Below, piece after piece: positions 3,315-54,957 of a stretch of DNA of 58,148 nucleotides. How positions within the stretch are numbered: position 1 is the first letter of the stretch; each line of letters starts with the position of its first letter. The notes beneath the pieces were generated by a model. The model searched no databases. It saw nothing but the letters and a program-made list of their open reading frames with translations, and had not been told where the DNA came from. This stretch comes from Microcaldota archaeon. GTDB lineage: Archaea > Micrarchaeota > Micrarchaeia > Anstonellales > Anstonellaceae. The DNA lies in contig JAPLWX010000038.1 in the NCBI GenBank assembly GCA_026396415.1, positions 1 through 58,148 on the forward strand, read 5' to 3'. The translations under genes were made by a program, and so were the position numbers.

Positions 3315-3315
3315 T

Positions 3316-6051: not shown

Positions 6052-6266
6052 AATGAAACTGTGGCGGAAAATGCGGATCGAGCCGCCTTTCCTAGATATT
6101 CCCTATAGTCGTCTCTCTACTAAGCATACTTATTCGCTTAAAGAATTTTAAAATATCAAAGTAATAGATACACCTCATTTCCGCAGCAATCACTTCGTAG
6201 ACCCACCGGCATCCTACCCTAGGAACAGTTATATGCACGTTTCCCTGCTTGTTTGGGGGTGGGATT
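6052..6266 (+). promoter_or_regulatory. Intergenic region with promoter of the Cdc6 gene of element A
   Basis: This 215-bp gene-free stretch separates the defence operon from element A. A TATA-like AGTTATATG lies around 6227-6235. A strong purine-rich ribosome-binding sequence (GGGGGTGGG, 6255-6263) sits just before GTG 6267 and decides that start over TTG 6249. I saw no inverted repeat or attachment-site copy here. Confidence 0.45.
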
Positions 6267-7397
6267 GTGCGCGAGCTGTTCGAAGACAGGCATGGCGTCG
6301 AAAGCGCGTTAATACTCAAGGAATATGCGCTCACGCCTGCATACTACTCAACGGATGTCCTCCACCGCGAGGCCGAGCTGAAGGAAATCGCGGAAGCAGT
6401 CAAGCCGCTTCTTTATGGCAGGCAGCCTGAGAATCTCTTCATCCATGGCGACTCAGGCACCGGCAAGACAACCTGCGCTAAATACGTGTCAAGGAAGCTT
6501 GAGGAGCAGTCGGGCAACGTAAAGCCGGTTTACATCAACTGCTGGCAGTCCCTGACGCGCATGTCAGCCTACTCCAAGATTGCCCTGGCAATCGAAACCA
6601 TGCTTCCAAGGCGCGGCTGGGCGATTGATGAAGGTCTTGACCGGATAACGGAGGCGATGGAGAAGGAAAACGTGAGGGTGCTTATGGTGCTTGATGAGCT
6701 AGATGGCCTGTTTTTCCAGCACCAGGAGTGGCTTTTGTACGACCTTACCCGCATCAACAGCGAAAAGCCGCTGTTTTGCGTGATTGCCATTTCAAAGGAT
6801 AAGAATCTCCTGGCGAACAAGGACATTCGGATAAAGAGCTCGGTCAGGCTCAAAGACCTCGAATTCAAGCATTATAACGCGGCGCAGATAGCGGACATTT
6901 TGGAGGAGAGGGCGAAAATCAGCCTGAGGGATGGCAGCTACAATCGGAATGTCCTGGATGCCTGCGCTGCAAGGGCGTTTGCCCGCGAAAGCAATGCGCG
7001 ACTGGGCTTCGAATTCCTCTGGAGAGCCGCGAAGATTGCGGAAAGGGGCAACCGCAGCAAGATAACCTTGGAAGATGTCAAGGCTTCTGCTGAAAGGACA
7101 CTGTACGATGAAAAGGCACCCAAGCGCGTGGAGGATCTGGGCTTTGAGTTCATGAACGCGAGCCTGACCGATGAGGAGAGGCTCATACTCAGCATACTCA
7201 AAAATGGTGAAAAGACCTCCTCGCAGCTTTATGCCGCGTTTTGCAGGAAGATGACGCGCAGCAGCCGCTCGATTCGGAACTACCTGAGCAGGCTCGAGAT
7301 AAAACAGCTGGTCAGGATTGAAACCGTGCCGGACAACGGCTCAGGGTTTTCAACAAGGAAGATAAGGCTGAATATTGGGACTGGAAATGAAACATGA
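6267..7397 (+). CDS. cdc6: Orc1/Cdc6-family AAA+ replication initiator (element A)
   Basis: This roughly 376-residue AAA+ ATPase has HREAELKEI, Walker A GDSGTGKTT (about residues 60-70) and Walker B VLMVLDELDGLFF (about residue 138), followed by an ATPase lid and a C-terminal winged helix (residues about 300-370; SSRSIRNYLSRLE). The order is that of archaeal Orc1/Cdc6, which recognises origins and loads MCM. It is co-oriented with the histone-fold gene 3 nt downstream and lies beside an iteron cluster at 7613-7722. A diverged homologue occupies the equivalent place in element B (55669-56745), sharing the NCWQ.S.RM.IYS region after Walker A. I infer replication of the element rather than of the chromosome. 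Confidence 0.88.
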   Translation: MRELFEDRHGVESALILKEYALTPAYYSTDVLHREAELKEIAEAVKPLLYGRQPENLFIHGDSGTGKTTCAKYVSRKLEEQSGNVKPVYINCWQSLTRMSAYSKIALAIETMLPRRGWAIDEGLDRITEAMEKENVRVLMVLDELDGLFFQHQEWLLYDLTRINSEKPLFCVIAISKDKNLLANKDIRIKSSVRLKDLEFKHYNAAQIADILEERAKISLRDGSYNRNVLDACAARAFARESNARLGFEFLWRAAKIAERGNRSKITLEDVKASAERTLYDEKAPKRVEDLGFEFMNASLTDEERLILSILKNGEKTSSQLYAAFCRKMTRSSRSIRNYLSRLEIKQLVRIETVPDNGSGFSTRKIRLNIGTGNET

Positions 7398-7612: not shown

Positions 7613-7722
7613 GCGCTTACTTTCGCGCTTAATGTTCCCTGCTAGCTTCCGAAACTTGACAGTCGGTGAAGACTGCGCTTAATATGCGCTTAAAACGACG
7701 TTCTGGCTGCCAATTGCGCTTA
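7613..7722. repeat. Iteron-like array, five GCGCTTA repeats (candidate origin of element A)
   Basis: Five direct copies of GCGCTTA begin at 7613, 7625, 7675, 7686 and 7716, the last overlapping the VirB4 stop codon. Spacings are 12, 50, 11 and 30 bp, so two pairs lie one helical turn apart. They fill the gap between the convergent histone and VirB4 genes, next to Cdc6. The position fits an initiator-binding site. Element B has a different iteron in the same place. Confidence 0.6.
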
Positions 7723-10700
7723 TTTCGCGCGTTTCGCTCTCAGATAATATTTGTGTGCTATCTCTTCTACTATGCTATCAATATCCGCGCGCGTTATCGT
7801 CCTTGCTATCTGCGAGTACTTGTCCTTCATGAGCCGGTCGGTGACAAGGATAACCGTTTCGTCAAACTCCTTCTGCCGTGACTCAATCCTCCGCTTAAGC
7901 TCTTCCGCATCGCCAAGCATGTTGTTTCCTGTTTCTACCTCAAAGCAGATCCTGCACTTGCCGATTGAGACCAGCACATCTGAATTTCCGCCAGCATCCA
8001 CCACCGCTTTTATCCGCTTGGACTTGAACCTGTCTGCGATTGCCCAGCAGAACAGCGCGTGCTCTGCCGTTTCGTTCCCCTGCGTTTTCACCAGGTAATA
8101 TGCGGAGCCCTCGTGCGCGCCCAGCTTGTCCTTGTGCAGCACGTAGCCCTCCTTGCGCAGGGTCTGTGCCTGCTTCTCGCTTATCTCGCTTAGCCGATAG
8201 TAGCCCTTGGATAGGTTTATCTTGACCTCCTCCTTGGCATATTCGCTCTCCTTTTCCTCGATGATTTTTTGCGCCTCATTGGGATCCGTAGTTATCAGTG
8301 CGTGGATCAGTGGAGGCGCCACTGTGAAGAAACGGTAATGCCCTTCCTCAGTTATCAGGATGCCGTGTCCCTTGTTTGCCCTAAGCAGGAAATCCTTCTC
8401 GCTATCGTTGAGCTTGAGCCCTTTTGAGACCAGTTCCAGGTTGCTCGGGTTCTGGCGCATGAGAATCTTTGTGGAAGTCGTGTTTAGGATGCTTCTTCCA
8501 CCATCGCTTTTCAGCAGGTCTTCTATTTCCTGCGTGATGAAGCCGATTGAGGCGTTGTATTTGCGGGAGGTCTTGATGAATTCCAGGATGTAGTTTTCCG
8601 CCTCGTGGCTGCGCAGCAGGGACCAGCCCTCGTCTATCAGCACCACCTTTGGCTTGTTGTCCTTCCTTATTTCTCGAGCAACCAAATCAAGCACAACGAA
8701 CATCATCAGCTTCTTTACAGGGCCTGGAAGCCTGCTGAGGTCAAAATCCACGAACTCGCTTTTGAGGTTTATTTTGGTCTGCTTGTCAAGGAAGCCGAAA
8801 AAGCCGCCCTTGCTGTACATCCGCACCCTGTTGAGAAGTACTTCCACGCTCCTGTCCTCAAGGAAGGACTTGCGCCTGTTCGATTTCTTGAGCACGCTTT
8901 CCAGCACCAGCTTGAAGTCGCTGAAAGTCGGCGGCTTCTTTTTCCAAGTGGCTGGCTTGTCGTAAACTATGCCCTTCTTCAGGTAGACGCCCAACAGCGC
9001 CTCATTGAGAACTCCCTTCTGGCTTTCCGTCAGGCCGCCGGAAATGATATCGAAAACTGATATCAGGGAAATCATCTTGCTTCCGAAATCCTCGCTTCCG
9101 AAGTCGAAGACGTTTATGATTGAGTCGGAGTCCTTGGAAAGCTCCACCACCTCGCCGTTCAGTTTTTTGGTCAGTTCCTTGTACTCCGCGTTCGGGTCGA
9201 GGATGTAGACCCTTGCCTCGTCGTTTATCAGGTGCTGGATTGTGAGGTATTTTGAGGTGTAGCTTTTTCCTGAGCCGGAGATGCCAAGCACGAAAAAGTG
9301 CTTGTTGCTCATGGAATCGAAGTCAACAAACAGGGGGTTCTTGGTCTGTTCTTCATGGGCGAACATCACCCCCTTTCTCTTTGTGCTTGCGGGGGATATG
9401 AAAGGGAAAGTGGCTGTGAGGGGGCTTGTCAAAAATTCCCTGTGCGATTCCAGCGCGTCGGTTCCGAGCGGAAGCGTGGACTTTATGCCCTCCGCCATGC
9501 GGTACTTTGCCACCTTGGGGATCATCAGCATGGCATTGAGGTTGGCGTTGCATTTCTCGGTCAACAAATCAAGCTTTCCAAGGTCGGCTTCCTTGTTGTC
9601 AAGGTAAAGCGAGACGCGGAAAAGCTTCTCCTCGCCCTTGTAGAGCTGCTCGTATGTCCTCATCGTGTCGTTCTTCTTTATCTCCAATGCCGGGTTGGGC
9701 GTGCCTTTTGCGGTGCTCATCATCAGATCCGCGGTTTGCCGGATTATCTGGTTGTGCAGAAGCACAAGTGTTTGGGTAATCGTGGACGGGTGGATGTGAA
9801 GCGAGATGTCGTAGCCCTCGTTTTTCCCAAGAAATGAGCGGAGCCAGCCGTCCTCAACTTTCCTTGGGTAGCCGGTTACCTTTACTATCCGGTGGAATGT
9901 CTCGTTTACCCTTGCCTCTTCCGGCTTGACCTCAAACGTAGGCGTAAGCATAAAACGAAAGATGTCCTTCATCGGGTTGTCGCTTTCCACTTTCCTTTTT
10001 GGGAAGAGTTTGGAGAACAAGCCAGGTTTTGGCTTTTTCTGGGCTACTTTCGCGGGGGCTGTTTCATCTTTGTATTCGGAATATGAGAATAGCAAGGCGA
10101 TTAACTGGTCGTTGCCAAGGCGGTTTGCTTCCAGTCCGCAGCCAGAAATTTTCTCCATCATTATCTGAACCTGCTGGTCAAGCTGCTTCAGTTCGTTATC
10201 TTGCCCAACCGTACCTTTTCCCATGCGTTTTTTCGGCTGGTGGGTGACAATCAGGTAGTAATGGCGCTCCTTTACCTTGTTTTCCTCCATGAACTTTTCC
10301 TCGAAGATACGGAAATCGGTGTAAAGCGAGCTGAATTCGCGCACCGAGTTCTGGAACTTCTTTTCCTGCGCCTCGAAATAGCCGTCCAAACGGGCGTCGG
10401 TTGTCCTTACCAGAACCTGTATCGGCTGGACAAGATGGTTGAGGAATTCCCGGTAATTGGATATGAGCGACTTTTTCCTTTCCTCGTCAAGAAGCTCGAA
10501 GTTCACAGGGTAAACCTGGAGGATTGCGCGCATCGCCCCGCTGTCAAGGTAGATTGTGCTGTCCTTTATCGCCTTTACACCTATGAAATGCTGTGCCTTC
10601 GGATCTTCGGGTGAGGCTTTTCGGATGTTTTGGTTGTATGCTATGGCATCAAGGAGCTTTTCCTCTATATTCAGGAACGCGAAAGCCAGGCCGGTTAGTG

Positions 10701-10863
10701 CAAATACTGCAGGCAGCACTAAACGGAACTCGCCTTCAAGCGGCAGGTTGTAGGCAAGGATAGCCATTACCCCAAAAAGCACGGCAAAGCCTAGCTGCTT
10801 GAGGTCAAGATTAAGGATAATCTTCTCTTTGTACTTTATCTCGTCTGGAATATCGTAGCCCAT
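7720..10863 (-). CDS. virB4: VirB3-VirB4-like conjugation ATPase with C-terminal nuclease-like domain (element A)
   Basis: This 1047-residue protein starts at ATG 10863, where MGYDIPDEIKY matches the homologue in element B. Residues 1-65 carry a PrgI/VirB3-like segment (DLKQLGF followed by two membrane helices). The VirB4 body has Walker A GISGSGKSYTSKYL near residue 525 and Walker B KVVLIDEGWSLL near 738, followed by QEIEDLL and ILMRQNPSNL, typical of VirB4/TraC. Residues about 910-1047 form an extra domain with AEHALFCWAI, SDVLVSIGKCRICFEVETG and VILVTDRL. Its Asp...Glu-x-Glu arrangement recalls PD-(D/E)xK nucleases. It would power pilus assembly or DNA transfer at the membrane. It is the last gene of the minus-strand operon. 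The nuclease assignment is inference. Confidence 0.85.
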   Translation of the reverse strand: MGYDIPDEIKYKEKIILNLDLKQLGFAVLFGVMAILAYNLPLEGEFRLVLPAVFALTGLAFAFLNIEEKLLDAIAYNQNIRKASPEDPKAQHFIGVKAIKDSTIYLDSGAMRAILQVYPVNFELLDEERKKSLISNYREFLNHLVQPIQVLVRTTDARLDGYFEAQEKKFQNSVREFSSLYTDFRIFEEKFMEENKVKERHYYLIVTHQPKKRMGKGTVGQDNELKQLDQQVQIMMEKISGCGLEANRLGNDQLIALLFSYSEYKDETAPAKVAQKKPKPGLFSKLFPKRKVESDNPMKDIFRFMLTPTFEVKPEEARVNETFHRIVKVTGYPRKVEDGWLRSFLGKNEGYDISLHIHPSTITQTLVLLHNQIIRQTADLMMSTAKGTPNPALEIKKNDTMRTYEQLYKGEEKLFRVSLYLDNKEADLGKLDLLTEKCNANLNAMLMIPKVAKYRMAEGIKSTLPLGTDALESHREFLTSPLTATFPFISPASTKRKGVMFAHEEQTKNPLFVDFDSMSNKHFFVLGISGSGKSYTSKYLTIQHLINDEARVYILDPNAEYKELTKKLNGEVVELSKDSDSIINVFDFGSEDFGSKMISLISVFDIISGGLTESQKGVLNEALLGVYLKKGIVYDKPATWKKKPPTFSDFKLVLESVLKKSNRRKSFLEDRSVEVLLNRVRMYSKGGFFGFLDKQTKINLKSEFVDFDLSRLPGPVKKLMMFVVLDLVAREIRKDNKPKVVLIDEGWSLLRSHEAENYILEFIKTSRKYNASIGFITQEIEDLLKSDGGRSILNTTSTKILMRQNPSNLELVSKGLKLNDSEKDFLLRANKGHGILITEEGHYRFFTVAPPLIHALITTDPNEAQKIIEEKESEYAKEEVKINLSKGYYRLSEISEKQAQTLRKEGYVLHKDKLGAHEGSAYYLVKTQGNETAEHALFCWAIADRFKSKRIKAVVDAGGNSDVLVSIGKCRICFEVETGNNMLGDAEELKRRIESRQKEFDETVILVTDRLMKDKYSQIARTITRADIDSIVEEIAHKYYLRAKRAK

Positions 10864-10868
10864 GGCAA

Positions 10869-11813
10869 TCACAGCGCGGCGTAAATCATCGGCAAAGCCA
10901 TCCACTTCAGAGGCCCCATCGTTTGGAGAACCGGCTCGACAACTGAAAGGATGGCGATTGCGAAAAGCGCAAGGTTGAGTAAGCCCACCAGCCCGAAGCC
11001 GAGCATCACAGCCATTGACTTGACGAATGAATCAAGCAGATTGGGATCCGGCGAGCTGAACAGCGAGGCAAGCCCGGCAATGAAAACCGCGTCTATTGCC
11101 GTCATGAATACGATTATTGCTATTATTTTGAGAAATGCGCCTCCCCACGCCTTTCCGAATGGCATGAAGTAGAGGAATATTGAGATTGGGAAAAGCAGTA
11201 GCAAGAACGGAATAAGCAAATAGCGGATAAGCAGCGTGAAGAATGTAATCCCTGCCGTGAAAAGCAACCCTCCGATTATCACAAGCGCGAATATCAATGA
11301 GGCAAAGGACATGTTCGCATTGAATACGCTTGCCACGGATTGGGTAATTAAAGAGGTCGAAATGTACTGGTTGAGCGAAAGCAGCATATCGAACAGGTAA
11401 AACGAGAACGTGAGTATCACTATCATGAAGAAAACGTCCTTGAGCATCATCTTTGCCCTTACCCTGCCTTCCACGTCCGGCGCCTGGATGATATAGTAAA
11501 ACCCTACGCCCATCAGCGCGATTGAGTAAAGGCTCTCCAAAAGCGCCATCACCTGCGTGTAAGGCGCGCAGAACCAGTGCGGATCGGGCGAGGCGGTAAG
11601 AAATCCTATTGCCGAATTGGTGAACTGCTGGCTTGTGTAAACCATGCCAGTTGCCAAAGTCGTAAGGAAAGACTCGGTTATACAGGCCGGAAGGTTATTG
11701 AGAACTGCCAGTATGTCCGTGTTGTTGGCGCACGAGCTTGGCGGCAGCGTCACATTCATTGAGGCGTTCTGGATCGCCATGAGCGCAAGGATGCCGAATA
11801 GGAAAAGCCTCAT
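10869..11813 (-). CDS. VirB6/TrbL-like polytopic membrane protein (element A)
   Basis: The protein has 314 residues from ATG 11813, exactly the length of its element B homologue. A signal peptide (MRLFLFGILALMAIQNAS) precedes a lumenal/extracellular stretch containing FLT.SPDPHWFCAPY, followed by about six membrane helices, including LLIRYLLIPFLLLLFPISIFLYF. The layout fits VirB6/TrbL inner-membrane channel components, and the neighbours (VirB4 5 bp downstream, VirB2-like genes upstream) support this. Family assignment is by topology and context rather than a diagnostic motif. Its start overlaps the upstream 504-residue gene by 4 nt (ATGA), so the two are translationally coupled. Confidence 0.75.
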   Translation of the reverse strand: MRLFLFGILALMAIQNASMNVTLPPSSCANNTDILAVLNNLPACITESFLTTLATGMVYTSQQFTNSAIGFLTASPDPHWFCAPYTQVMALLESLYSIALMGVGFYYIIQAPDVEGRVRAKMMLKDVFFMIVILTFSFYLFDMLLSLNQYISTSLITQSVASVFNANMSFASLIFALVIIGGLLFTAGITFFTLLIRYLLIPFLLLLFPISIFLYFMPFGKAWGGAFLKIIAIIVFMTAIDAVFIAGLASLFSSPDPNLLDSFVKSMAVMLGFGLVGLLNLALFAIAILSVVEPVLQTMGPLKWMALPMIYAAL

Positions 11814-13324
11814 TTTAGCAGCCTCCTTGCCAGTCTGTAAAGCAGATATGCGATGAGAAGCGCGGTTGCGATGTACCAAAGCGTGGAGAAGAAATCCGGC
11901 TCCTTGGTTGGAATGATGTATATTGCCCTTGCGCTCTTGGTTTCAAAGTCGGTCAGGAATTCAGCGTAAACCGTGCTTGTTGCTGGCGTGTAATTGAATT
12001 GCGCGTATGCCTCGCCAAGGGAATCTGTTGTTATTGACTGGTTCTTGCCTGCATAGTATAGGGCAATTTGCTTCTGTGCAAGCGGGGAGCTAGTCCCATT
12101 GTCATAAAACCTGACTTTCAAATGGAAGGTTGAGTTTGTCCTGTTCGTTAAATTGAGCGCGATTATGGGCGTTTGGTTCAATTCTGGGCAAAAGGTGCCG
12201 TTTTGCCAGCTTCCAAAATGCGAATTGACCTCAAAAGTGCAGTTTAGGCTAGCCGTGCCTACCTGGAAGTGGGTTTTTTCGCTGTAAATGGTAGTTTCAT
12301 TGATTTCCCTGCTTAGGGGCACTATGTTGTAGATTTGCGCCTTCCTGCTCGGGTGCGCTGCGGGCGTCAGGATGTTATAGGGCGCAAGGCCATACGCCAG
12401 ATTATATTCCCTGTTTTTCACTTTCAGGTATGAGTTGCCAACCGAAAGCCCAAAGTTGCTGAAATCCGCGTTGGACGAATAGGAAAACCAGCCATCAAGC
12501 AACCCGTCCTTGAAAGAATCCACCATTGAACGCTCGGTGTGGTTGAAGGCATAGTAAGAGGCGCTTTTGCTGTCCGACGCGCTCGCTGAATCGTGGATGT
12601 CGTCCGTGCCAACATAATCGCAAGTGGTGTAGCAATGAGTAATGCCGTTTGAAGTGTAGCAGTGCGTAACCAGATGGGAGTGATGGATGAGATATTGCGA
12701 GTTTGCGTTGAGCGTGGACATGAACACATTCGGAACCTGAGAAACGCTGAAGTTTGACTTTGTGCCTGCGCCGATGCTTTGTCCGTTGAGGTAGTTCTGT
12801 ATTCCGAAGTTATAGCCGCAGACAACGTATTGCGTGTTGCAATCGCTCGGGAAAGTCTGATGCTCGATGACAAAGCTAAGCGCGGCTTGGGAGTAAAGCT
12901 CGCCCGTGGAATTCACGAATAGACTCGAATTCTCAATAACCGAAGGCGAAAGCGAGAGGATGCGCACCCACGCGCCCTTGATGTTGTTCGAGTTTACTAT
13001 GGTAGTGTTGTCGGGCGCGTATTTCGTGAACTGGAGCGCGTAATTCCAGTTCTTGGACTCGTTGAAATCCGGCAAGCCGTTATTCCGTATGAGATTGTCG
13101 GTTATCAGCATTTTCTTCTGGTCGTTCGTAAGATTGCCGAGATGGTCGCAGATTGTCGGATCAACAAGGTTGAGGTTATGGCAGTTGTCAATCAGCGAAT
13201 CCGCAGGCCTAGCAGGTGGCGCGTTGCTGCTCGCCCAGGTAAAGTCATGGTAAGGGTAAGCCGGGCAGGTCGGTATGGCTTGCGCTAGCGCGGGAAGCAG
13301 GAGGAGAAGGAGCAGCCGTTTCAT
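11810..13324 (-). CDS. Secreted, membrane-anchored 504-residue protein, specific to element A
   Basis: An N-terminal signal peptide (MKRLLLLLLLPALAQA) leads to a large exported domain rich in N-x-S/T sequons and cysteines. A C-terminal helix (FFSTLWYIATALLIAYLLY) with a basic tail follows. The topology is that of a surface protein with one anchor. Near residues 395-455 an Ig-like segment (TNRTNSTFHLKVRFYDNGTSS...ALYYAG...FNYTPATSTVYAEF) is visible. I do not recognise a family. It sits inside the VirB operon, overlapping both neighbours by 4 nt, and is absent from element B. A role in target-cell contact or as surface tip of the transfer machine is inferred only from that position. Confidence 0.8.
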   Translation of the reverse strand: MKRLLLLLLLPALAQAIPTCPAYPYHDFTWASSNAPPARPADSLIDNCHNLNLVDPTICDHLGNLTNDQKKMLITDNLIRNNGLPDFNESKNWNYALQFTKYAPDNTTIVNSNNIKGAWVRILSLSPSVIENSSLFVNSTGELYSQAALSFVIEHQTFPSDCNTQYVVCGYNFGIQNYLNGQSIGAGTKSNFSVSQVPNVFMSTLNANSQYLIHHSHLVTHCYTSNGITHCYTTCDYVGTDDIHDSASASDSKSASYYAFNHTERSMVDSFKDGLLDGWFSYSSNADFSNFGLSVGNSYLKVKNREYNLAYGLAPYNILTPAAHPSRKAQIYNIVPLSREINETTIYSEKTHFQVGTASLNCTFEVNSHFGSWQNGTFCPELNQTPIIALNLTNRTNSTFHLKVRFYDNGTSSPLAQKQIALYYAGKNQSITTDSLGEAYAQFNYTPATSTVYAEFLTDFETKSARAIYIIPTKEPDFFSTLWYIATALLIAYLLYRLARRLLK

Positions 13325-13752: not shown

Positions 13753-13968
13753 TTAACAATAGCTCCCTCCTTTCAGCAACGTGGCGACCAGGGGCGCGAG
13801 GAAAATCACGGATATCCCAACGAACACACCGATGAGCACCTCCTTCCACTCCGCCCTCTGCGCCGGGTTCCTGCTGGTCATCAGCACGAGGCCTGCGTAG
13901 GCGCAGACTATGACGCTGAAAAACACCGCGACAGTCCGTATTGCCGCGGCTATTTCGGTCAGGTCCAT
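13753..13968 (-). CDS. VirB2/TrbC-like small membrane protein 2 (element A)
   Basis: This 71-residue protein has two membrane helices: residues about 12-30 (VAVFFSVIVCAYAGLVLM) and 47-66 (IGVFVGISVIFLAPLVATL), separated by a short polar loop (TSRNPAQRAEWKE), ending GGSYC. Two helices around a polar loop is the VirB2/TrbC pilin topology. The element B partner (50588-50812) shares the loop N-R/P-xQR-EWKE and the GGGSYC end. No cleavable signal peptide is evident, unlike the neighbouring pilin candidate. It starts 2 nt after that gene, so both are probably made together as two related subunits. Confidence 0.7.
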   Translation of the reverse strand: MDLTEIAAAIRTVAVFFSVIVCAYAGLVLMTSRNPAQRAEWKEVLIGVFVGISVIFLAPLVATLLKGGSYC

Positions 13969-13970
13969 GC

Positions 13971-14279
13971 CTACCACCCGCACACGTCCGTCGCGCCCAC
14001 CAGGTTCTTGACGAGCAGCGGCGCCACCCAGATGATAATCAGCCCGATCACCACCCCTCCGAGCAGCCCCTTTGCGGTGTTCCTCTCGGCTATGTCGTTG
14101 CTGCTTGCCAGTACGAACCCGCCGTATGCCGCTATCAGGACGCCCGCGATTGTGCCCAGCACCTGGATTATCCCGTACAGCCTGCAAATGGGCTGATCCA
14201 CGGGAATCACCAGGTCAGCAGCCACTAAGCCCGCCAGCGCAAGCAAGCCAGCTGCAGCCAGCAGAATTTTCCTATTCAT
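13971..14279 (-). CDS. VirB2/TrbC-like pilin candidate 1 (element A)
   Basis: The protein has 102 residues: a signal peptide (ILLAAAGLLALAGLVAA), then DLVIPVDQPICRLYGIIQ, then two membrane helices around an SSNDIAERNTAKG loop, ending DVCGW. Two conserved cysteines, one after the signal peptide and one at the C terminus, could form a disulfide. The element B homologue is close (CRLYG, LAERNNAK, LLGGVVIGLII, DVCGW all retained). The layout fits a TrbC/VirB2 major pilin. The start overlaps the stop of the methyltransferase gene by 4 nt. Pilin function is inferred from topology and VirB neighbours. Confidence 0.75.
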   Translation of the reverse strand: MNRKILLAAAGLLALAGLVAADLVIPVDQPICRLYGIIQVLGTIAGVLIAAYGGFVLASSNDIAERNTAKGLLGGVVIGLIIIWVAPLLVKNLVGATDVCGW

Positions 14280-18635: not shown

Positions 18636-18758
18636 ATGGAAGAAAAACCGTTGTCCCTCGACGATCTCAAGCCATTTCTCCCGGCTTGGCTATGGGAATT
18701 GAAAAAGAAAGCAAAAGAAGAAAGGGAAAAGAAGTCAGAGCTTCTGGTCAAGCCCTAG
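18636..18758 (+). CDS. Possible 40-residue basic/acidic helical peptide, antisense to integrase end
   Basis: An ATG-started frame of 40 codons encodes a lysine/glutamate-rich helix (FLPAWLWELKKKAKEEREKK). It lies in the gap behind the integrase gene and overlaps its last 24 bp on the other strand. The amphipathic composition looks protein-like rather than random, but there is no homologue in element B and no clear ribosome site, so it is a weak call. Confidence 0.3.
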   Translation: MEEKPLSLDDLKPFLPAWLWELKKKAKEEREKKSELLVKP

Positions 18759-19937
18759 CTCGACAGCCTTCTTGAAAAGGTAGTCCTTGAATTCCGCGTT
18801 TTGCATGAGCCTGTTGAGCACCTCTTCGCCGACCTTGCGCTCGTCCTCGATCTGGATCGCGGACTGTGCGTTCATCGGAGTCCCGCAGCGCAGGCAGAAT
18901 TTCGCTATCGGCGAGTTCTTCTCCTTGCAGCGCGGGCAAAGGCAAACCACCATTTTGTCCTCCTTCTTGTCGTCAGGTTTAATGATGCCCTGCAGAGCGA
19001 GCAGTGCCTTGTCCACATCGCGCCCGGACAAGTGCACGTAAACTGAAGCCATGTCGCTTGCCTGCACCCAGCCGAAATACTCCTTCATCTGCGCCTCGGT
19101 CAGCTTTCCCGCAAGCGCCGTTGCCCGCGAATGCCTGAACAGGTGCGGGAAAATGCGCTTCTTTATCCCAGCCTTTATGGCCAGTTGCTTCAGCATGAAG
19201 TAGACCGAGCGGTATTCCATGCACGTTTCGCGGTATTTGTAGCCGTTCGAAAGAGGCGGCCAGAGGGGCGCTTCGGGGTTATCCGCCTTCGCGTGGATTT
19301 CAATCCAGGACGAAAGCGTAGGCGCCGAGCTGATTATCCGAACGCGCCTATCTCCAGTCTTGCCCGTAACCCGCAGCACAGCCCCGTATTGGTCAAACTG
19401 GACGTTCTTCATCTTGAGGGTGAGGATTTCACCTATCCGGCAGCCGGTCTCGTACAGGACAAGGATAAGCGCCTTGTCACGCGGGTGATCCGCGGCTTTC
19501 GCCAGCCTGAAAACCTCCTCCTCGGTAATGAGCTCCTCGGGCAGCTTGTGCTTGTTCTTGAGCCTCGATTTTATCCAGGAAACTTCCGGGGGGAAAAACT
19601 CGTCGTTCCCCTTGTACCATTTGAAAAATAGCTTCAGAATGGTCTTGAAGTCGTGCTTCGAGGCAGGCGCGTAATCGGTGCTGTCCACCTCGTTCACAAG
19701 CTTCATCAGGCTCTCTTTAGTCGCCTCGTCAAAGGGCTTTTCGTGCCATTTTGAGAGGAAGCGGAGGCAGTAAATGCACTTGCACATCCGCATCCGGCCA
19801 ACGCCCCGAGCAAGCCTTTCATTCGCAAAAGAAAGGATCAACTGCTTGTTCTTGGGGCATACGCCCTTGTCGCGCTCCACCCGCTTATACGCCAGGTCCA
19901 TGTTGGCCTGGCTCTTATGCACCTCGAAATTTCCCAT
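18735..19937 (-). CDS. Tyrosine recombinase/integrase with C-terminal zinc ribbon (element A)
   Basis: The protein has about 400 residues from ATG 19937 (MGNFEVHKS); an in-frame start at 19991 is less likely. An N-terminal core-binding domain precedes the catalytic domain with ETGCRIGEIL (first Arg), HLFRHSRATA (His-x-x-Arg) and SVYVHLSG, where the Tyr would be the nucleophile. After it comes a zinc ribbon, CPRCKEKNSPIAKFCLRCG (about residues 338-356). The gene starts about 90 bp from the 3' end of tRNA-Gly, the usual place for an integrase that uses a tRNA 3' end as attachment site. It would integrate and excise element A. Confidence 0.9.
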   Translation of the reverse strand: MGNFEVHKSQANMDLAYKRVERDKGVCPKNKQLILSFANERLARGVGRMRMCKCIYCLRFLSKWHEKPFDEATKESLMKLVNEVDSTDYAPASKHDFKTILKLFFKWYKGNDEFFPPEVSWIKSRLKNKHKLPEELITEEEVFRLAKAADHPRDKALILVLYETGCRIGEILTLKMKNVQFDQYGAVLRVTGKTGDRRVRIISSAPTLSSWIEIHAKADNPEAPLWPPLSNGYKYRETCMEYRSVYFMLKQLAIKAGIKKRIFPHLFRHSRATALAGKLTEAQMKEYFGWVQASDMASVYVHLSGRDVDKALLALQGIIKPDDKKEDKMVVCLCPRCKEKNSPIAKFCLRCGTPMNAQSAIQIEDERKVGEEVLNRLMQNAEFKDYLFKKAVELGLDQKL

Positions 19938-20028
19938 GCCTATCTCTCCGGTCAAAGGGTAATTTGAGGCTTCATGCCCAATCCGGCACATACGTGCCAG
20001 ATCGGGGCGAACTGAGGTTAGAATAAAG

Positions 20029-34422: not shown

Positions 34423-34478
34423 GCGAGGAACAGGGCGAGATAAACTGGAAGTTCATGAATACGGATTGAGGTTCTTGC

Positions 34479-39973: not shown

Positions 39974-40023
39974 GGCATATGCCCAATAAAGCATTAAGTT
40001 GGACAGAGGGCATAATTTGCGAT

Positions 40024-43211: not shown

Positions 43212-45938
43212 TTACTTTTTCTTAGGCTTGGCTTTTGCCGCAGGCTTTTTGGCGCTCGTTTTTGCTTTGGAGGGAGTTATTTTTGCCGTTGGAGATGGCT
43301 TCTCCTCTGCCTCTTCCTCGTCGGGCATGGAAACCTCGGGCTGATGCACACGGGCGCGCGCTGCCGCCTTTTCGCGTATCCTGCTCAGCTTCTGCGCAAG
43401 GGAGGCGTCCTCGTCATCCTCTTTTTGCAGGAGGGAGCGTTCTTCCCGTGATTCTTCATCTGATGCTTCTTTTGCGCGCTTCGCCCTGCGGGGGGCAGGA
43501 GCTTCATCCTCGCTTCCTTCTTCACCCCGGCTGCGCCTGCTGGCCTTCTTTGCTGGCTTTGCCTCAGGCTCGTATTCAGGCATGTAAATCGGCTTGTGCT
43601 TGCTGCGGGGCTTTGATTTTGGAGCGGGCTCTTCATCTTCGGGCGCCTCATTCTCATCCTCTGGCGATTCGCCCTCGTCTGCAGGCATTTCTTCTTCGGA
43701 TGAAGGCGCCTCACCCTTATCTGCCGGCTCGTCCTCATCAGGAGAGGATTCTTCGTCCTTGGGCGCATCCTTATAGGCAGTGTCCTCGTCAAGCGCGAGC
43801 TCCTTTTCCTTGTCCGCAATGTCCTCTTCGCTTTCCTTCTCTTCGTGCGGCTCCTCGTCCTCGCGGAGCCTTATGGGCGAGTCTTCCTCAAGCTTCATGC
43901 CCATGAGCTCGTCTGAGAATTTCGCTGGCTTTTTTTCCTCGTCTTCATCTGACCGGGAACTCTCTTCTTTTTCCTCATCCCCTTCCTTGTCTTTAGTCTC
44001 ATCCTTGAAAACAGGGGGCTGCGGCTTCTTTTCCGCGCCGTACTGCACATTGTAGCTTGCCGATGACTGCTGCGCGCCTGCGGACTGGGAATGTGCGCTT
44101 TGCCGGTGCACCGGGGCTTGCGCGCCCTGCGCATTGCCCGCCTGGGGCGGCGGGCGGACCTGCCCAGAACCGTATTGCGCGACAGGGGGCTTGCCGTCGG
44201 AATCATTCGTGTCATGCGCGGCATCCATCTGGGAAAGCTCCATGGATGGCTTGTAGCCCCAGCGCGCGACATCCACCACGTGCAGCTTCATGGGAAGTAT
44301 GTATTTCTTGCCGTCGAACAGCCGCACAATGCACTCACGCTGGTGAAGCCTTACAAACATCTCCTTCTTGCTTTCCTCAAGCTCGGTTTGCGTCCGCGCC
44401 TTCTTGAAGGATTCCTCTATCTTGATTTCCATGATGGATGAAATCATCGTTGCATCCTCCCTGTTGAGCTTGAAGGAGACGATGTTCCTTATGTTCGAGA
44501 CTATGCTGTCATGTATCTCCTTCTGCATCTGCCCGAGGTACTGCATGGAGAGGTAGGCATAGAGGTTGAATTTGCGCGTCTCGGAGAGGATGTCCTTCAC
44601 CACCTTGGTCTCCACGCGCTGGAACTCGTCCATCACGAGGATGGTGGGCACGTTGAGCTTTTCCGTGATGGCAAGGATGTACATCTGGTTTATCACGGCG
44701 CCGGCAAGGAAGTTGATCATCCGCTTGCCGAAGAAGTTGGGATTGAAGGAAATCACGGTGACGTTGTTCTTGCGGATGAGGTTGAGGAGATCCTCCTTTT
44801 TCTTGTCGCCGCCAAGGTAAAGCTCGTATTCGCCCACGAAGTTGAGCACGGGCAGTATGGCATCGTTGAAGTGGTGGATGTAGATGTCATTGAACTCCTC
44901 GTCGAAGAAGCGCTTTATCTCGTCGTTCTCGACAGAGGAGACGAACTCCGCGCGCTTACTGGAGTCCGTGAGCAGGAGGGAGACGTTCTTCAGGTTCATG
45001 GAGTCTATGGAGGAGAGCAGGTGCACCGCGTAGAACAGCACGCGCTCGGAGTATTTGTTGTCCCCGCCTATTGCCGATGAAAGAAGCTGGGAGATGAGCT
45101 GCGTCATCAAGGGCGTCTTGTTGCCCCCGACGTCGAGGGGCTCGATGTAGTTGTGGACGAGGTCGACTATGTAGTCGTTGGGGAACATGCGCACGAACTC
45201 GCCGTGCGGGTCAATCATCACTATGCGGACGTTGCTGCCGTATTTCGCCTGTATGGACTTTATCAGGGCGAAGAGCCCCTTGCTTTTCCCTGTGCCCGAT
45301 GCGCCTATCACAAGCGTGTGCTGGAAGATGTCGAAATTGTCCACGCCCACGGTGATGCCGGTTTCCTCGAACACCGGGTATTGCGAGGTGACCGACATGC
45401 GCTTTGGTATGGGGTCCAGTATCTCGATGTAGACCGCGGGGTTCTTCTCCAGGTCCACCTCGAAAAAGCGCTCGGGGCTGGTGGAAACCACTATGCTTTT
45501 CTTTCCCTTCTCGTTCACCGCGGTGCCAAAGCCCAGCGTCTTGCCAAGCACCCTCCAAATCTTCAGGTCCACCTCCACTATGCTTTCCTTCAGGGCAAGG
45601 GAGAGGAAGTCCTGCGCGCCGCCGAGAAAGTAGAACTTGGGGAACGGGAGCATGCTGCCTTTTTCCTTTTCAAGCATGACCGGCTCGGACACCTTGTAGG
45701 GGAAGACGAGCATGGACATGTCCGCAAGCCCTTTTCTCTCGCGCGCAAAGAACTGCATGGTGTTTATCTTGCGCTTGGTGATGATGTTTATGAAGTTCGG
45801 CGAGAAGAAGTCGCGGAAATCAATGAATCCCAGGAATGGCATTGTGGACTTGAGAATCTGGTTGAAGAGGTTCCTCACGTCCGACTCCTTTATCTTTTCA
45901 GAGTAAAGGAGGAGCTCGCGCGCTTTCACAGTTCCCAT
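43212..45938 (-). CDS. HerA/VirB4-superfamily ATPase with long acidic tail
   Basis: The protein has 908 residues. A beta-rich N-terminal domain (about 1-190) precedes the P-loop core: Walker A GASGTGKSKGL (about residue 212), IDPHGEFVRMFP, Walker B TILVMDEFQRV and a hexamer-type finger RNIVSFKLNREDA. This is the HerA/FtsK/VirD4 superfamily, whose members pump DNA or act in secretion. From about residue 570 the chain is low complexity: glutamine/serine-rich, then strongly acidic (EEDIADKEKELALDEDTAY), ending in a lysine/alanine-rich basic tail. The tail resembles a eukaryotic-like charged linker. It converges with the cysteine-rich array, with no base between the two stop codons. Confidence 0.82.
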   Translation of the reverse strand: MGTVKARELLLYSEKIKESDVRNLFNQILKSTMPFLGFIDFRDFFSPNFINIITKRKINTMQFFARERKGLADMSMLVFPYKVSEPVMLEKEKGSMLPFPKFYFLGGAQDFLSLALKESIVEVDLKIWRVLGKTLGFGTAVNEKGKKSIVVSTSPERFFEVDLEKNPAVYIEILDPIPKRMSVTSQYPVFEETGITVGVDNFDIFQHTLVIGASGTGKSKGLFALIKSIQAKYGSNVRIVMIDPHGEFVRMFPNDYIVDLVHNYIEPLDVGGNKTPLMTQLISQLLSSAIGGDNKYSERVLFYAVHLLSSIDSMNLKNVSLLLTDSSKRAEFVSSVENDEIKRFFDEEFNDIYIHHFNDAILPVLNFVGEYELYLGGDKKKEDLLNLIRKNNVTVISFNPNFFGKRMINFLAGAVINQMYILAITEKLNVPTILVMDEFQRVETKVVKDILSETRKFNLYAYLSMQYLGQMQKEIHDSIVSNIRNIVSFKLNREDATMISSIMEIKIEESFKKARTQTELEESKKEMFVRLHQRECIVRLFDGKKYILPMKLHVVDVARWGYKPSMELSQMDAAHDTNDSDGKPPVAQYGSGQVRPPPQAGNAQGAQAPVHRQSAHSQSAGAQQSSASYNVQYGAEKKPQPPVFKDETKDKEGDEEKEESSRSDEDEEKKPAKFSDELMGMKLEEDSPIRLREDEEPHEEKESEEDIADKEKELALDEDTAYKDAPKDEESSPDEDEPADKGEAPSSEEEMPADEGESPEDENEAPEDEEPAPKSKPRSKHKPIYMPEYEPEAKPAKKASRRSRGEEGSEDEAPAPRRAKRAKEASDEESREERSLLQKEDDEDASLAQKLSRIREKAAARARVHQPEVSMPDEEEAEEKPSPTAKITPSKAKTSAKKPAAKAKPKKK

Positions 45939-46465: not shown

Positions 46466-46489
46466 GTGGTTTACTACCGGATTATTTCA

Positions 46490-46525
46490 TATACCTTTAT
46501 ATACTTCAAACGCATTAACAGCTAC
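46490..46525 (+). promoter_or_regulatory. Promoter of the element B integrase
   Basis: A TATA box (CTTTATATAC, 46495-46504) lies about 25 bp before ATG 46526. This makes the internal ATG the start, with a leaderless or near-leaderless message, and rejects the in-frame GTG at 46466, which overlaps the promoter. Confidence 0.6.
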
Positions 46526-47785
46526 ATGGATTCAATTTCTTCATCTCCTCCGACGTACACAACGTCAGCAGCCTATGATGTTGTTCGGCTTGCCCATTTC
46601 AAGAACGTTCTCAAGACAGACGAAGCCATAATTCCGGCAAACAAAATAGACCTCATGAAATTTATAAGCCATATGGAGAGCCGCGGCATCACCATTTCGC
46701 GTTGCCGCTCGCTCATGGATGACATAATGTGGTTCGGCAGGCTCCTGAAAAAGCGCTGGATGGACTGCACCCGCGAAGACATTGACGAGCTGATGGCCGA
46801 TCTGCGCCGCACCGATTACGCAGGCTGGACAAAGCTCCGCAAGGCATTCGCACTCAAAACTTTCTACCGCTACCTGAATGGCGGCGACTCCCCGCCACAT
46901 TGCGTTGCCAGGATAAACCGCACAGAGCTTAATTTCGAAACCCACAATCTTGAAAGCCGGGACATCCTAAGCCTTGAAGACCTCCAAAAGCTGCTCAAGG
47001 CCTGCGACAACGAACTTGAATCTGCGCTTATCTATTGCTTATGGGAGAGTGGCGCACGCTCGTCCGAGTTTATGAGACTCACAATTGGCGACCTGGAGGA
47101 CAAGGGCAACTTCTACTTGGTTCACATCCGCACTTCCAAAGTCAGGGCTTCCTCAAGCGCCCCAAGAGTCCGCAAGTTCCCCCTAGTGGAAAGCGTTGGC
47201 TTCCTTCGAGCCTATTTGAACAAGCACCCTATGCGTGACAACCCACAGGCAGCCCTTTGGCTCTCAAACAGCCAGAACCGCCGCAGGCAGCCTCTGACAG
47301 ACCGGGGCCTACGTTTCATCATCAAAGGCATAGGCAAGCGCGCCAAGATAGGCAAACGGGTGTGGGTGCACCAGTTCAGGCACTCTGCAGCCACCCGCAT
47401 GGCCCCCAAGCTCTCCCTGCCAATAATGAACGACCTTATGGGATGGAGCAAAAGCAGCCGCATGCACGCCACCTACGTGCAACTTGATGGCGAGGCATCC
47501 CAGCGCGCGGTTCTTGAACTTTACGGCATGGAGGCGCCACAGTCTAAGCCCAAGCCTGTTGAAATGCTTCCCTGCCCCGCCTGCAAGACTCCCAACCTGC
47601 CTGGCAATGTCATGTGCGCCATCTGCGGCCGCGCATTGCAGACCATCGGCGCAGTCAGCGTAATGGACGAGCTTGAGCAGATGAAGAAGAAAATGAACCA
47701 AATGATGCTGCCAGCCGCACGCGGATCCGTAACCCGAGCAAAGAGGGCCGCGCAAAGAAAGATGCTGAGAAAAAAGAGGGCGTAA
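46526..47785 (+). CDS. Tyrosine recombinase/integrase with C-terminal zinc ribbon (element B)
   Basis: The protein has 419 residues from ATG 46526. The catalytic set is WESGARSSEFMRL (Arg), HQFRHSAATRM (His-x-x-Arg) and MHATYVQLDG (Tyr). An N-terminal core-binding region precedes it, and a zinc ribbon CPACKTPNLPGNVMCAICG (about residues 350-368) plus a basic tail follow. The same domain order, including the ribbon, is found in the element A integrase, although sequence identity looks modest. It catalyses insertion and excision of element B; the attachment site is not resolved. Confidence 0.9.
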   Translation: MDSISSSPPTYTTSAAYDVVRLAHFKNVLKTDEAIIPANKIDLMKFISHMESRGITISRCRSLMDDIMWFGRLLKKRWMDCTREDIDELMADLRRTDYAGWTKLRKAFALKTFYRYLNGGDSPPHCVARINRTELNFETHNLESRDILSLEDLQKLLKACDNELESALIYCLWESGARSSEFMRLTIGDLEDKGNFYLVHIRTSKVRASSSAPRVRKFPLVESVGFLRAYLNKHPMRDNPQAALWLSNSQNRRRQPLTDRGLRFIIKGIGKRAKIGKRVWVHQFRHSAATRMAPKLSLPIMNDLMGWSKSSRMHATYVQLDGEASQRAVLELYGMEAPQSKPKPVEMLPCPACKTPNLPGNVMCAICGRALQTIGAVSVMDELEQMKKKMNQMMLPAARGSVTRAKRAAQRKMLRKKRA

Positions 47786-49509: not shown

Positions 49510-50283
49510 ATGGAAAAGAAACACCTTGTTGTAATCGGCAACCCGCGAAGGATGGCTGAAGTGCCGGATGGCTCCGTGCAGCTCGTGATAACCAACCCTC
49601 CCTATTTTGACATAGGTGGCTGCGACGAATGCACGGAATGCCAGGACGACTTCAACGACTACTTGCAGGAAATGCAGCTCATCTTATCAGAATGCCACCG
49701 GGCACTGGAGGATGGCGGCATAATCTGCCTGAACATATGCGATGTTGTGAACTACAAGTGCAAATATCCCATCCCCGCGCACTACACACTTCTCCTTCAG
49801 CGCGCGAACTTTGAATACCGGGAGGAGATAGTCTGGCGCAAGCCATCTGGCGATCTGACCGGCACACGAAGGGGCCTGTTCATCCAACGCGCCACCCCAA
49901 TGGACTACTCTCCGAACAACGTCCTTGGGCATGTCCTGGTTTTCCGCAAGGGCAAATTCAACCGCAAGAAGGTAAGCGATGGAGAAAGGCGCCAGGCAGT
50001 GCATGACATAAGAGAGGTGATGCGCAGCCGCCAGGACATGGACGCCGGCTCTTTGTATCCAGCGGAGCTTGCGGAGGCGCTCATCAAACTTTACACTTAC
50101 GAGGGGGAAACGGTGCTTGACCCGTTCCTTGGTGGCGGCATGACTGTACAGGCAGCGGCGTGCCTTGGGCGCAGGTCCATAGGCTACGAACCCGACCGCT
50201 CCCGCCTGCCGTCTATCCTGCAAGGGTCACGCATCGCCCCAAATGACCTGGAAATAATCGGACAAAGGAGGCTGTTTGAATGA
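49510..50283 (+). CDS. DNA methyltransferase homologue, partly diverged motifs (element B)
   Basis: The protein has 257 residues. It aligns with the element A enzyme from MEKKHLVVIG onwards. Motif IV is VITNPPYFDI (TSPPY in A) and motif I VLDPFLGGGMT (GSGTT in A), again in beta-group order. The SHPAMFPEELPEALI segment of A is reduced to SLYPAELAEALI, and a cysteine-rich loop (CDECTEC) is inserted after motif IV. Activity is possible but the changes may alter target or weaken it. It is the first gene of the VirB operon, with 4-nt overlap into VirB2. Confidence 0.82.
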   Translation: MEKKHLVVIGNPRRMAEVPDGSVQLVITNPPYFDIGGCDECTECQDDFNDYLQEMQLILSECHRALEDGGIICLNICDVVNYKCKYPIPAHYTLLLQRANFEYREEIVWRKPSGDLTGTRRGLFIQRATPMDYSPNNVLGHVLVFRKGKFNRKKVSDGERRQAVHDIREVMRSRQDMDAGSLYPAELAEALIKLYTYEGETVLDPFLGGGMTVQAAACLGRRSIGYEPDRSRLPSILQGSRIAPNDLEIIGQRRLFE

Positions 50284-50585
50284 GGAAAACACTAATGGCA
50301 ATTGCCGCGCTGCTGTGCTTTGCTGGGCTTGTGGCAGCCGAGCTGGTAATTCCGCCAGAGCAGCCTGTCTGCAGGCTATACGGCATGATCCAGGTGTTTG
50401 CCACAATAGGCGGCATCCTGGCTGCTGCATATGCTGGCTTCACGCTTGCCACGAGCCATGACTTGGCGGAGCGCAACAATGCCAAGCTGCTCCTCGGCGG
50501 AGTGGTGATAGGACTGATAATCGTCTGGCTTGCTCCGTTGGCTGTGAAGAGCCTTGTGGACGCAAGCGACGTGTGCGGGTGGTAG
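50280..50585 (+). CDS. VirB2/TrbC-like pilin candidate 1 (element B)
   Basis: The protein has 101 residues with a signal peptide (LMAIAALLCFAGLVAA), then ELVIPPEQPVCRLYG, two membrane helices around TSHDLAERNNAK and the end DASDVCGW. It is highly similar to the 102-residue protein of element A, the best conserved pair besides the winged helix proteins, which suggests strong constraint on this subunit. The two conserved cysteines are kept. Likely the main pilin or channel-rod subunit. Confidence 0.77.
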   Translation: MRKTLMAIAALLCFAGLVAAELVIPPEQPVCRLYGMIQVFATIGGILAAAYAGFTLATSHDLAERNNAKLLLGGVVIGLIIVWLAPLAVKSLVDASDVCGW

Positions 50586-50816: not shown

Positions 50817-51761
50817 ATGGAAAAATCATATATCGCAATTATTGCATTCCTCCTCCTTGCAGGCACCTCCCACGCAGATTCAACCAACTCCACGAACTAC
50901 GGAGATCTCATAAGCGCGCTCACAACCGGGCTTACAAACCTCCCCGGCAAGATAGTTGATAGCTTCTTCTCTTACGCTGTTTCGGGCCTTATCTCCTCCT
51001 CGCATCAGCTCGTGGACTCGTCCTTCAAGTTCATGTTCTCAACCCCCAACCCCATGTGGTTCTGCACCCCTTACAACGGGGTAATGGCGATAGTGGAAAG
51101 CCTCTACTCGCTCACTCTGATGGGGCTTGCGCTCTACTTCATATTACGCTCTAACGACGCAGAAGGCAGGGCTAGTGCGAAAAAGTGGATGGAGAACATG
51201 CTCGTAATGGTCGTGATACTCACCTTCTCATTCCAAATCTTCAGAACAATGCTGGATTTCAGCACCTTCCTTGCAACAAGCGCGGCAAGCGAGTCCATGA
51301 AAAGCATCTTCACAAGCCCTCTCAGCTTTTCCACATCCATCTTCTCGCTTGTCATCCTCATCCCGGCAATCTCAGGCATGTTCCTGACCTTCCTGACCCT
51401 CCTGCTCCGCTACCTGCTCATCCCGTTCCTGCTTTTCCTCTTCCCGTTTTCAATTTTCCTCTATTTTACGCCCCTGACGCAGCGATGGGGCAAGGCATTC
51501 CTGAGCATAATAGTCGCAATAGTCTTCATGACGACTTTCGACGCACTCATACTCCTTGGGCTAAGCTCGCTGTTCAATTCGCAAGACCCCAACTTGGCAG
51601 ATTCGCTTGCGCGCGCGTTCGCCGTGCTTTTCGGCTTTGCCGCGATTGGATTAGTCAATCTGCTAATCTTCATCCTGTCAATCCTTTCCATAATACTACA
51701 GAACAACACCGTAAGGAGCGTGTTGGGATTTGCAGTGGCTGGGAAGGTGCTGACAAGGTGA
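50817..51761 (+). CDS. VirB6/TrbL-like polytopic membrane protein (element B)
   Basis: The protein has 314 residues, the same length as in element A. A signal peptide (SYIAIIAFLLLAGTSHA) precedes an exported segment with FSTPNPMWFCTPYNG and about six membrane helices, including LLRYLLIPFLLFLFPFSIFLYF and FLSIIVAIVFMTTF. The FCxPY element and the positions of helices are conserved with A. It would form the membrane channel of the transfer apparatus together with VirB4 (5 bp downstream). Confidence 0.77.
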   Translation: MEKSYIAIIAFLLLAGTSHADSTNSTNYGDLISALTTGLTNLPGKIVDSFFSYAVSGLISSSHQLVDSSFKFMFSTPNPMWFCTPYNGVMAIVESLYSLTLMGLALYFILRSNDAEGRASAKKWMENMLVMVVILTFSFQIFRTMLDFSTFLATSAASESMKSIFTSPLSFSTSIFSLVILIPAISGMFLTFLTLLLRYLLIPFLLFLFPFSIFLYFTPLTQRWGKAFLSIIVAIVFMTTFDALILLGLSSLFNSQDPNLADSLARAFAVLFGFAAIGLVNLLIFILSILSIILQNNTVRSVLGFAVAGKVLTR

Positions 51762-54700: not shown

Positions 54701-54957
54701 TTGCCACGGTTGGCGCGGACGTTTCAGTGAAGGTTGGGAAGAGGAGGATTTGCTTTGAGGTTGAGACGGGCAGCAATCTTGACTCCTATGATGAGGAGCA
54801 CGTTAAGGCAAAGTTTGAGGAAATAAGAAAGGAATACGATATGCTCATTGTGGTGGTGACTGACAGGAAGCAGCGGGGGAAGTACGAAAAGATTGCGCGC
54901 GCGAAGGCGATAACAAGGACTGAGGTGCCGGAAGCAGTGGCAAGGCTGTTCAGATAG
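51766..54957 (+). CDS. virB4: VirB3-VirB4-like conjugation ATPase with C-terminal nuclease-like domain (element B)
   Basis: The protein has 1063 residues from GTG 51766. It contains a PrgI/VirB3-like N terminus (SYDIPDEIKYREK, two membrane helices), Walker A GISGSGKSYAAKF (about residue 546), Walker B VVLIDEGWSLL (about 760), QEIEDLM and ILMRQNSSNL. The extra C-terminal domain (about residues 910-1063) repeats the features of A: SPEHSLLCWGI, ADVSVKVGKRRICFEVETG, VVVTDRK. Conservation of Asp, Glu-Val-Glu and the flanking strands in two diverged copies supports a functional nuclease-like fold. The middle linker around residues 280-330 differs strongly from A. Confidence 0.86.
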   Translation: MSYDIPDEIKYREKIVFGLDLKQLCYLCLFGLLAFLSLSIPIKGQAVLILPSFFSILGVGFIFLNLEERVLDAWHYYGEVRKAPSSDKKAQRLMGIHAIENNQMILVDGSLRAVLQVEPINFSLLDEGQKTAFVSNYREFLNHLTDSVQILVRTEKSDAEDLFAEAQSNLEGAETEIASFFRDFFTFEREFMEANNVKSRRYYLVVAQQKRVALGKGNAEEERKQLDQKAQIIQEKLSACGLRSERLSSARLTRLFTSYSVAENEEQEKEAETKKGNPHINSLIWLIIKTKIDIAAFFAPVSANHAKKEKQVKEPESERASSLIEEITPDFDISISHAGVNGIRHRIIKAVGYPRNVEDGWLEQFMATSEPYDVSIHIHPASISRTLVNIHNQIIRQTSDLLSGNAEHTPNPALEIKRKDTLKVYGLLYKGKEKMFDVSLYVDNQARDLEELALMEERCKANMNAMLIVPKRTDFRMADGIKSMLPVAVDALEARREFLTSSLCATFPFLYPVDSRGKGTFFAHERRTLNPLFIDFDAMSNKHFFVLGISGSGKSYAAKFLLMQHILSREAKIYVLDPNAEYSGLVERLGGTEIDLSKDSDKIINLFDLAGEDFGSKMLTLISVFDIITGGLSESQKGVLNEALVRVYRKKGIDAANPGSWERKAPTFSDLKGILEDMKRRVKRRTQSPEEKSVEVLLNRVRMYSRGGFFGFLDRGTKVDLNSGVLSFNLSSLPPQVKQLVMFSVLELVSREMRKDKKPKVVLIDEGWSLLRSKEAEDYILEFIKTSRKFNASIGFITQEIEDLMRSEGGRSILNTTSTKILMRQNSSNLDLISKTLALNDRERDYLLRAEKGQGLMINEQGRYEFIVKAPPMINALITTDPNEKRPEGMPVMEKKKEKKDAGEMDCACGFYLESELSDAQKDFLATEGFVYHRSHLFDAKGSHRFVVRRQPQESPEHSLLCWGIAEEIRKHGGRPEVLATVGADVSVKVGKRRICFEVETGSNLDSYDEEHVKAKFEEIRKEYDMLIVVVTDRKQRGKYEKIARAKAITRTEVPEAVARLFR

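Follow-up and report, generated by a model that had tools for sequence, protein, structure and literature searches.

The analysed window (58,148 nucleotides, from a Microcaldota archaeon with a genome of 1.74 Mb) carries two integrated elements, A and B, each of which encodes one VirB4 protein (Table 1). The two VirB4 proteins share 52% identity over their full length, and in both of them a TraG/VirB4 P-loop ATPase domain (PF19044; E 3.5e-23 in A and 2.1e-25 in B) is preceded by an N-terminal VirB3/PrgI segment, for which only a weak PrgI match was obtained (21.9 and 17.0 bits versus a cut-off of 27). Both are accompanied by a VirB2-like pilin and by a VirB6-like membrane protein, the latter recognised from a conserved neighbour cluster and 6–9 transmembrane stretches. 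Neither tRNA att sites nor convincing direct repeats at the bounds of the elements were found. An ABC-three-component defence-like module (CTD10, MC6, HNH_2) is located inside element A (15198–17933, minus strand), and a row of NOV_C, DUF1156 methylase-like and DUF499 genes resembling a defence cassette lies beside it (175–6051, plus strand). A run of paralogous proteins of ~530 aa with no Pfam match occupies positions 32851–41619 (plus strand).

Table 1. Features of elements A and B in the window
Feature	Element	Position	Strand	Remarks
Cdc6/Orc1-like AAA+ protein	A	6249..7397	plus	Cdc6_lid
VirB4	A	7720..10905	minus	1061 aa; PrgI/VirB3-like N-terminus, ATPase, C-terminal nuclease-like domain
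C-terminal domain of VirB4	A	7723..8220	minus	aa 896-1061; winged-helix-like lead-in and PD-(D/E)xK-type core (predicted); AF2 pLDDT 89, pTM 0.86
Glu989-Val-Glu991	A	7933..7941	minus	989 acidic 66/66 (57 E, 9 D); 991 Glu 66/66
Asp976	A	7978..7980	minus	invariant 66/66; predicted metal ligand; Asp81 in domain numbering
His949	A	8059..8061	minus	invariant 66/66; start of core helix 1; His54 in domain numbering
ATPase core of VirB4	A	8368..9315	minus	P-loop_TraG match, aa 531-846, E 3.5e-23
VirB6-like protein	A	10869..11879	minus	~7 transmembrane stretches; hydropathy and conserved neighbour cluster; no Pfam match
VirB2-like pilin	A	13753..14187	minus	PF18895 32.7 bits, above cut-off
Tyrosine recombinase (integrase)	A	18735..19991	minus	PF00589
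HerA/TrwB-like ATPase	adjoins B integrase	43212..45938	minus	PF10412 32 bits, DUF87 40.7 bits
Tyrosine recombinase	B	46466..47785	plus	PF00589
VirB2-like pilin	B	50280..50585	plus	PF04956 22.8 bits, below Pfam cut-off
VirB6-like membrane protein	B	50817..51761	plus	hydropathy and neighbour cluster
VirB4	B	51766..54957	plus	1063 aa; architecture as VirB4 A
C-terminal domain of VirB4	B	54478..54954	plus	aa 905-1063; AF2 pLDDT 90.6, pTM 0.86
Asp985	B	54718..54720	plus	equivalent of Asp976
Glu998-Val-Glu1000	B	54757..54765	plus	

A previous reading of the window, made from its sequence only, had stated that no relaxase is encoded. With the families tested none was detected either: PF03432 and PF13814 had no match in the whole genome, and no relaxase Pfam family was matched by the scanned genes of the two elements. 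VirD4 (PF02534) was likewise without a match in this genome. The HerA/TrwB-like ATPase near the integrase of element B may act as a coupling protein, and a lack of coupling protein is therefore not claimed here.

The P-loop_TraG match stops at aa 846 in VirB4 A and at aa 852 in VirB4 B, and the C-terminal tail thus lies beyond the ATPase. The sequence-only reading had noted that both tails extend past the usual ATPase and have motifs in common, and all four motifs were recovered in both proteins: EHALFCWAI (A, aa 948) or EHSLLCWGI (B, aa 957); SDVLV (A, aa 975) or ADVSV (B, aa 984); ICFEVETG (aa 986 and 995, respectively); and VTDR (aa 1021 and 1031). Between the Asp of the second motif (D976 in A, D985 in B) and the first Glu of the third one (E989 and E998) lie exactly 12 residues in either protein, and the second Glu is at aa 991 and aa 1000. 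The location proposed for the domain, within the last 130–150 residues, was right, while its length was underestimated: the domain covers ~165 residues, because a small winged-helix-like lead-in is counted in. Searched against Pfam, NCBIfam, PHROG and PADLOC, the tail gave matches at chance level only, and the domain profile found no match in a sequence search of the PDB.

The fold of the domain was predicted with AlphaFold for copy A from a 23-row alignment and, separately, for copy B from 54 rows. Both models displayed the helix-strand-strand-strand-helix-strand (alpha-beta-beta-beta-alpha-beta) arrangement of the PD-(D/E)xK core (in copy A and domain numbering, helix 52–66; strands 71–74, 82–86 and 89–96; helix 105–118; strand 121–126), preceded by a short strand-helix-strand-strand lead-in that resembles a winged helix. 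A fold unrelated to nucleases, which would have spoken against the early proposal, was thus not what the prediction returned. Comparison with solved structures by Foldseek and VIA-align placed VC1899 first (Z 9.9, rmsd 3.8 over 138 residues); Hjc was also matched (Z 8.1, rmsd 3.7 over 95 residues), and Can2/Cdn1, BsaWI and, for domain B, the nickase N.BspD6I were further top matches, all of them nucleases or proteins of nuclease fold. Foldseek E-values to the PDB were modest (6e-3 at best for A and 4.2e-4 for B), and a Z of 8 is near the warning level of the tool; the case for the fold rests on family consistency and on sequence tests.

Conservation was counted over 66 non-redundant homologues gathered by profile searches. 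Loss of the Asp and Glu residues in most homologues would have weakened the nuclease proposal; instead, the Asp, an acidic residue at position 989 and Glu991 were each present in 66/66. Expressed in domain numbering, where position 94 is E989, Glu96 is E991 and Gly98 is G993, the Gly is also invariant (66/66) and Thr97 is kept in 65 of the 66 sequences, which gives the family signature H...D-x12-(E/D)-x-E-T-G. The position of the canonical Lys of PD-(D/E)xK enzymes is taken by Glu in all homologues, and the same Glu is found in most of the Replic_Relax/MOBC alignment. Absence of this Lys would suit a catalytically weak or dead module that serves for DNA binding or for docking on VirB4, as would the presence of binding-only versions of the fold (ERCC1, FAAP24, FANCM) among the structural matches. 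We nevertheless regard such a module as improbable, given that none of the 66 homologues, strongly diverged as they are, has lost the His or any of the acidic positions, and that the Replic_Relax/MOBC alignment has the same ExE set.

Kinship was assessed with hhalign. When the 66-row profile was set against Hjc proteins of the same phylum, the PD-x12-E stretch aligned exactly (P 5.9e-5), and none of 300 column shuffles was as good. MOBC relaxases belong to the PD-(D/E)xK enzymes; they nick oriT, carry a winged helix at the N-terminus and have not been seen to form a covalent intermediate (PMC8152469, PMC12857230). Against a set of 16 MOBC/Replic_Relax proteins, including that of pAM373 (a plasmid typed as MOBC), the alignment of the same profile spanned 141 columns and paired His, PD and ExE with their counterparts (P 3.3e-4, with none of 1000 shuffles as good; HH probability 38%). 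The Replic_Relax profile also matches a Cdc6 cluster, probably via the winged helix, and for this reason the core was tested alone, with the winged helix removed; the match persisted (P 0.002, 0/300 shuffles). No match was obtained with Mrr, NucS and 14 unrelated profiles (P 0.02 or worse). By these profile comparisons, the domain appears to match MOBC more weakly than it matches the Hjc active site. Moreover, significance was reached only with 66 rows and with pAM373-type MOBC proteins added, alignment of 23 rows against 11 Replic_Relax proteins not being significant, and PF13814 matched none of 23 domain members. In the set and order of its residues the domain is therefore MOBC-like but, having no PF13814 match, it is not assigned to that family; on sequence grounds, MOBC membership is not established. 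The CloDF13 record contained no annotated MobC.

Taken together, the PD-(D/E)xK resemblance, originally seen by eye, is now backed by two independent models, fold matches, residue conservation, and the Hjc and MOBC profile matches with their shuffle controls. On the evidence of the models, the VirB4 C-terminal domain almost certainly has a PD-(D/E)xK fold and, as far as computation goes, the assignment is close to settled.

A profile search with the tail domain alone recovered it in 136 of 301 genomes of the phylum, which indicates that the likeness between the VirB4 tails is not due to chance. All 15 VirB4 proteins with at least 55% identity carried the domain; more distant VirB4 proteins of 894–907 aa from one family (G087, G089, G093) gave no domain match by profile search. 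Searches of viral contigs, plasmids and phages did not detect the domain. A diverged copy (GPDIV...IAIEYETG) is carried by a HerA-like ATPase of ~530–700 aa that occurs once per genome in many members of two other families (f20 and f21), and among the neighbours of this ATPase no T4SS genes were recognised. The gene for this ATPase often adjoins one for a xylose-isomerase-like TIM-barrel protein (AP_endonuc_2; loci L111–L130, L149 and L150).

Since this related domain occurs on a HerA-like ATPase without recognised T4SS neighbours, its ancestral role may not have been conjugation. The HerA-like chromosomal form favours the main rival to a relaxase-like function, namely a processing nuclease of the HerA/NurA kind that is not site-specific. 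Coupled to the translocase for end processing or degradation, as has been proposed for NurA and HerA, such an enzyme would resect imported or exported DNA, or attack competing DNA as HerA-nuclease defence pairs do, with no site-specific nicking. In line with this, HerA-NurA has been proposed to make single-stranded DNA for archaeal DNA exchange (PMC9905601), and VirB4 A matches PADLOC HerA models through its ATPase. However, no defence model is matched by the domain alone, and a stand-alone form without ATPase travels with recombinases. We consider this reading unlikely, though to be kept in view.

The stand-alone form comprises 12 distinct genes that form one clade (support 100/100), and several of the proteins have two predicted N-terminal membrane stretches. 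A further candidate, L058/L142, looks like a VirB4 that has been truncated, and this count does not include it. Nine of the 12 genes follow closely downstream of a tyrosine-recombinase gene on the same strand, three of these being separated from it by a single small gene; a tenth has a recombinase gene nearby. In the genome studied here, recombinase and domain gene form a repeat of ~2.6 kb, present in three near-full copies with 87–92% identity and devoid of T4SS genes. A 41-bp core sequence ends this unit and also brackets an apparent derivative that lacks both genes. At L035:7693-8927, such an apparently non-autonomous derivative has both ends and the 41-bp repeats flanking another small gene. 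A dN/dS of about 0.04–0.06 shows strong purifying selection on the stand-alone copies. Elsewhere, homologues of the HerA/TrwB-like ATPase of Table 1 and of the ~530-aa paralogues adjoin an integrase and a stand-alone domain gene (L045, 1292–5779), and two mini-element recombinase copies (91% nucleotide identity) with no nuclease-like gene are situated among chromosomal-looking genes (L231:3842-7650).

The position immediately downstream of recombinase genes, together with an active-site motif profile nearest to Hjc, could point to a recombination accessory factor, i.e., a Holliday-junction resolvase or excision helper that works with the tyrosine recombinase. This contrasts with the VirB4 elements, in which the domain is fused to the secretion ATPase, away from the integrase, and with the recombinase copies of the same mini-element family that lack a domain gene, so that we hold this role to be quite improbable.

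No relaxase has been recognised on archaeal conjugative plasmids, and the literature leaves open how they produce the single-stranded DNA that is transferred (PMC9905601, PMC12857230). By a slight preponderance, we favour the view that the VirB4 C-terminal domain is a MOBC-relaxase-like, cis-fused DNA-processing nuclease which readies the element for transfer, and that mobilizable mini-elements make use of the stand-alone copy. From sequence and models, a relaxase-like role is plausible; that no relaxase was detected and that the domain also occurs alone beside integrases would both fit DNA nicking or processing for transfer. Using its H...D-x12-(E/D)-x-E active site, the domain would nick the element's own DNA at the transfer origin, in a metal-dependent reaction with no covalent intermediate. 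The cut strand would then be passed directly to the fused ATPase, with motor and DNA-processing enzyme in one polypeptide. By extension, we infer that the stand-alone domain beside a tyrosine recombinase may allow small integrated elements to behave as mobilizable ones by processing DNA in trans. What the analysis established is the predicted fold, the conserved residues, the fusion, the distribution, the synteny and the selection; that the domain is catalytic, that it makes nicks and not double-strand breaks, that it is specific for oriT and that it acts in transfer is inferred. Against the MOBC-like reading stand the Glu in place of the canonical Lys, the mini-element recombinase copies without a domain gene, and the fact that no oriT was found.

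A bolder form of the MOBC-like reading, which we put forward only tentatively, is that in this domain archaeal conjugation has its first relaxase, a nickase of MOBC type built into VirB4, and that small integrase-plus-nuclease elements use a freed copy of it to hitch a ride. If the relaxase reading is true, one protein both cuts and pumps DNA in archaeal conjugation. Judged from models and sequence, the tail domain could be a candidate for the missing nicking enzyme, and a VirB4-fused nuclease-type domain that also occurs in recombinase mini-elements offers a concrete protein, three residues and substrates for testing the relaxase question. A PD-(D/E)xK domain fused to VirB4 was not described in the literature searched, which is no proof of absence.

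The domain was also compared with known systems. It resembles MOBC/PF13814 Replic_Relax proteins (TraX of pAD1, pAM373-type plasmids) in the residue order His, (P)D, E-x-E and then a conserved basic residue, and in having a coupling or translocating ATPase encoded nearby. Ahead of the nuclease core, where those proteins have a winged helix, a short winged-helix-like lead-in is predicted here. MOBC relaxases, however, are separate bacterial proteins of 260–300 aa, while here the domain is fused to VirB4 in archaea; the likeness is visible only profile to profile, and the ETG motif that follows the active site is found in the VirB4-tail family only. The PD-(D/E)xK core is shared with Hjc and VC1899/Can2/Cdn1, and the D-x12-E spacing is identical to that of Hjc of the same phylum, although Hjc has ExK instead of ExE. 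Unlike these proteins, which have other partners, the domain is fused to a T4SS ATPase and lacks a CARF domain. The association of a HerA/VirB4-superfamily motor with a nuclease function, with no recognised relaxase, is common to HerA-NurA and archaeal Ced/Ted DNA exchange (PMC9905601), but NurA is a separate nuclease of RNase H fold, in contrast to a PD-(D/E)xK domain that is part of VirB4. Likewise, arCOG03166 of archaeal dark-matter islands combines ATPase, HTH and PD-(D/E)xK-type nuclease on archaeal mobile DNA; compared by description only, it is an AAA+ ATPase with HTH and RecB nuclease and not a VirB4 (PMC4158269).

Finally, in Bacillus and Staphylococcus plasmids typed as non-mobilizable (L072–L081), a Replic_Relax gene was observed between a DUF87/TraM-recognition ATPase gene and conjugation genes, and mobility typing of such plasmids may, as far as gene content suggests, miss MOBC-like relaxases.
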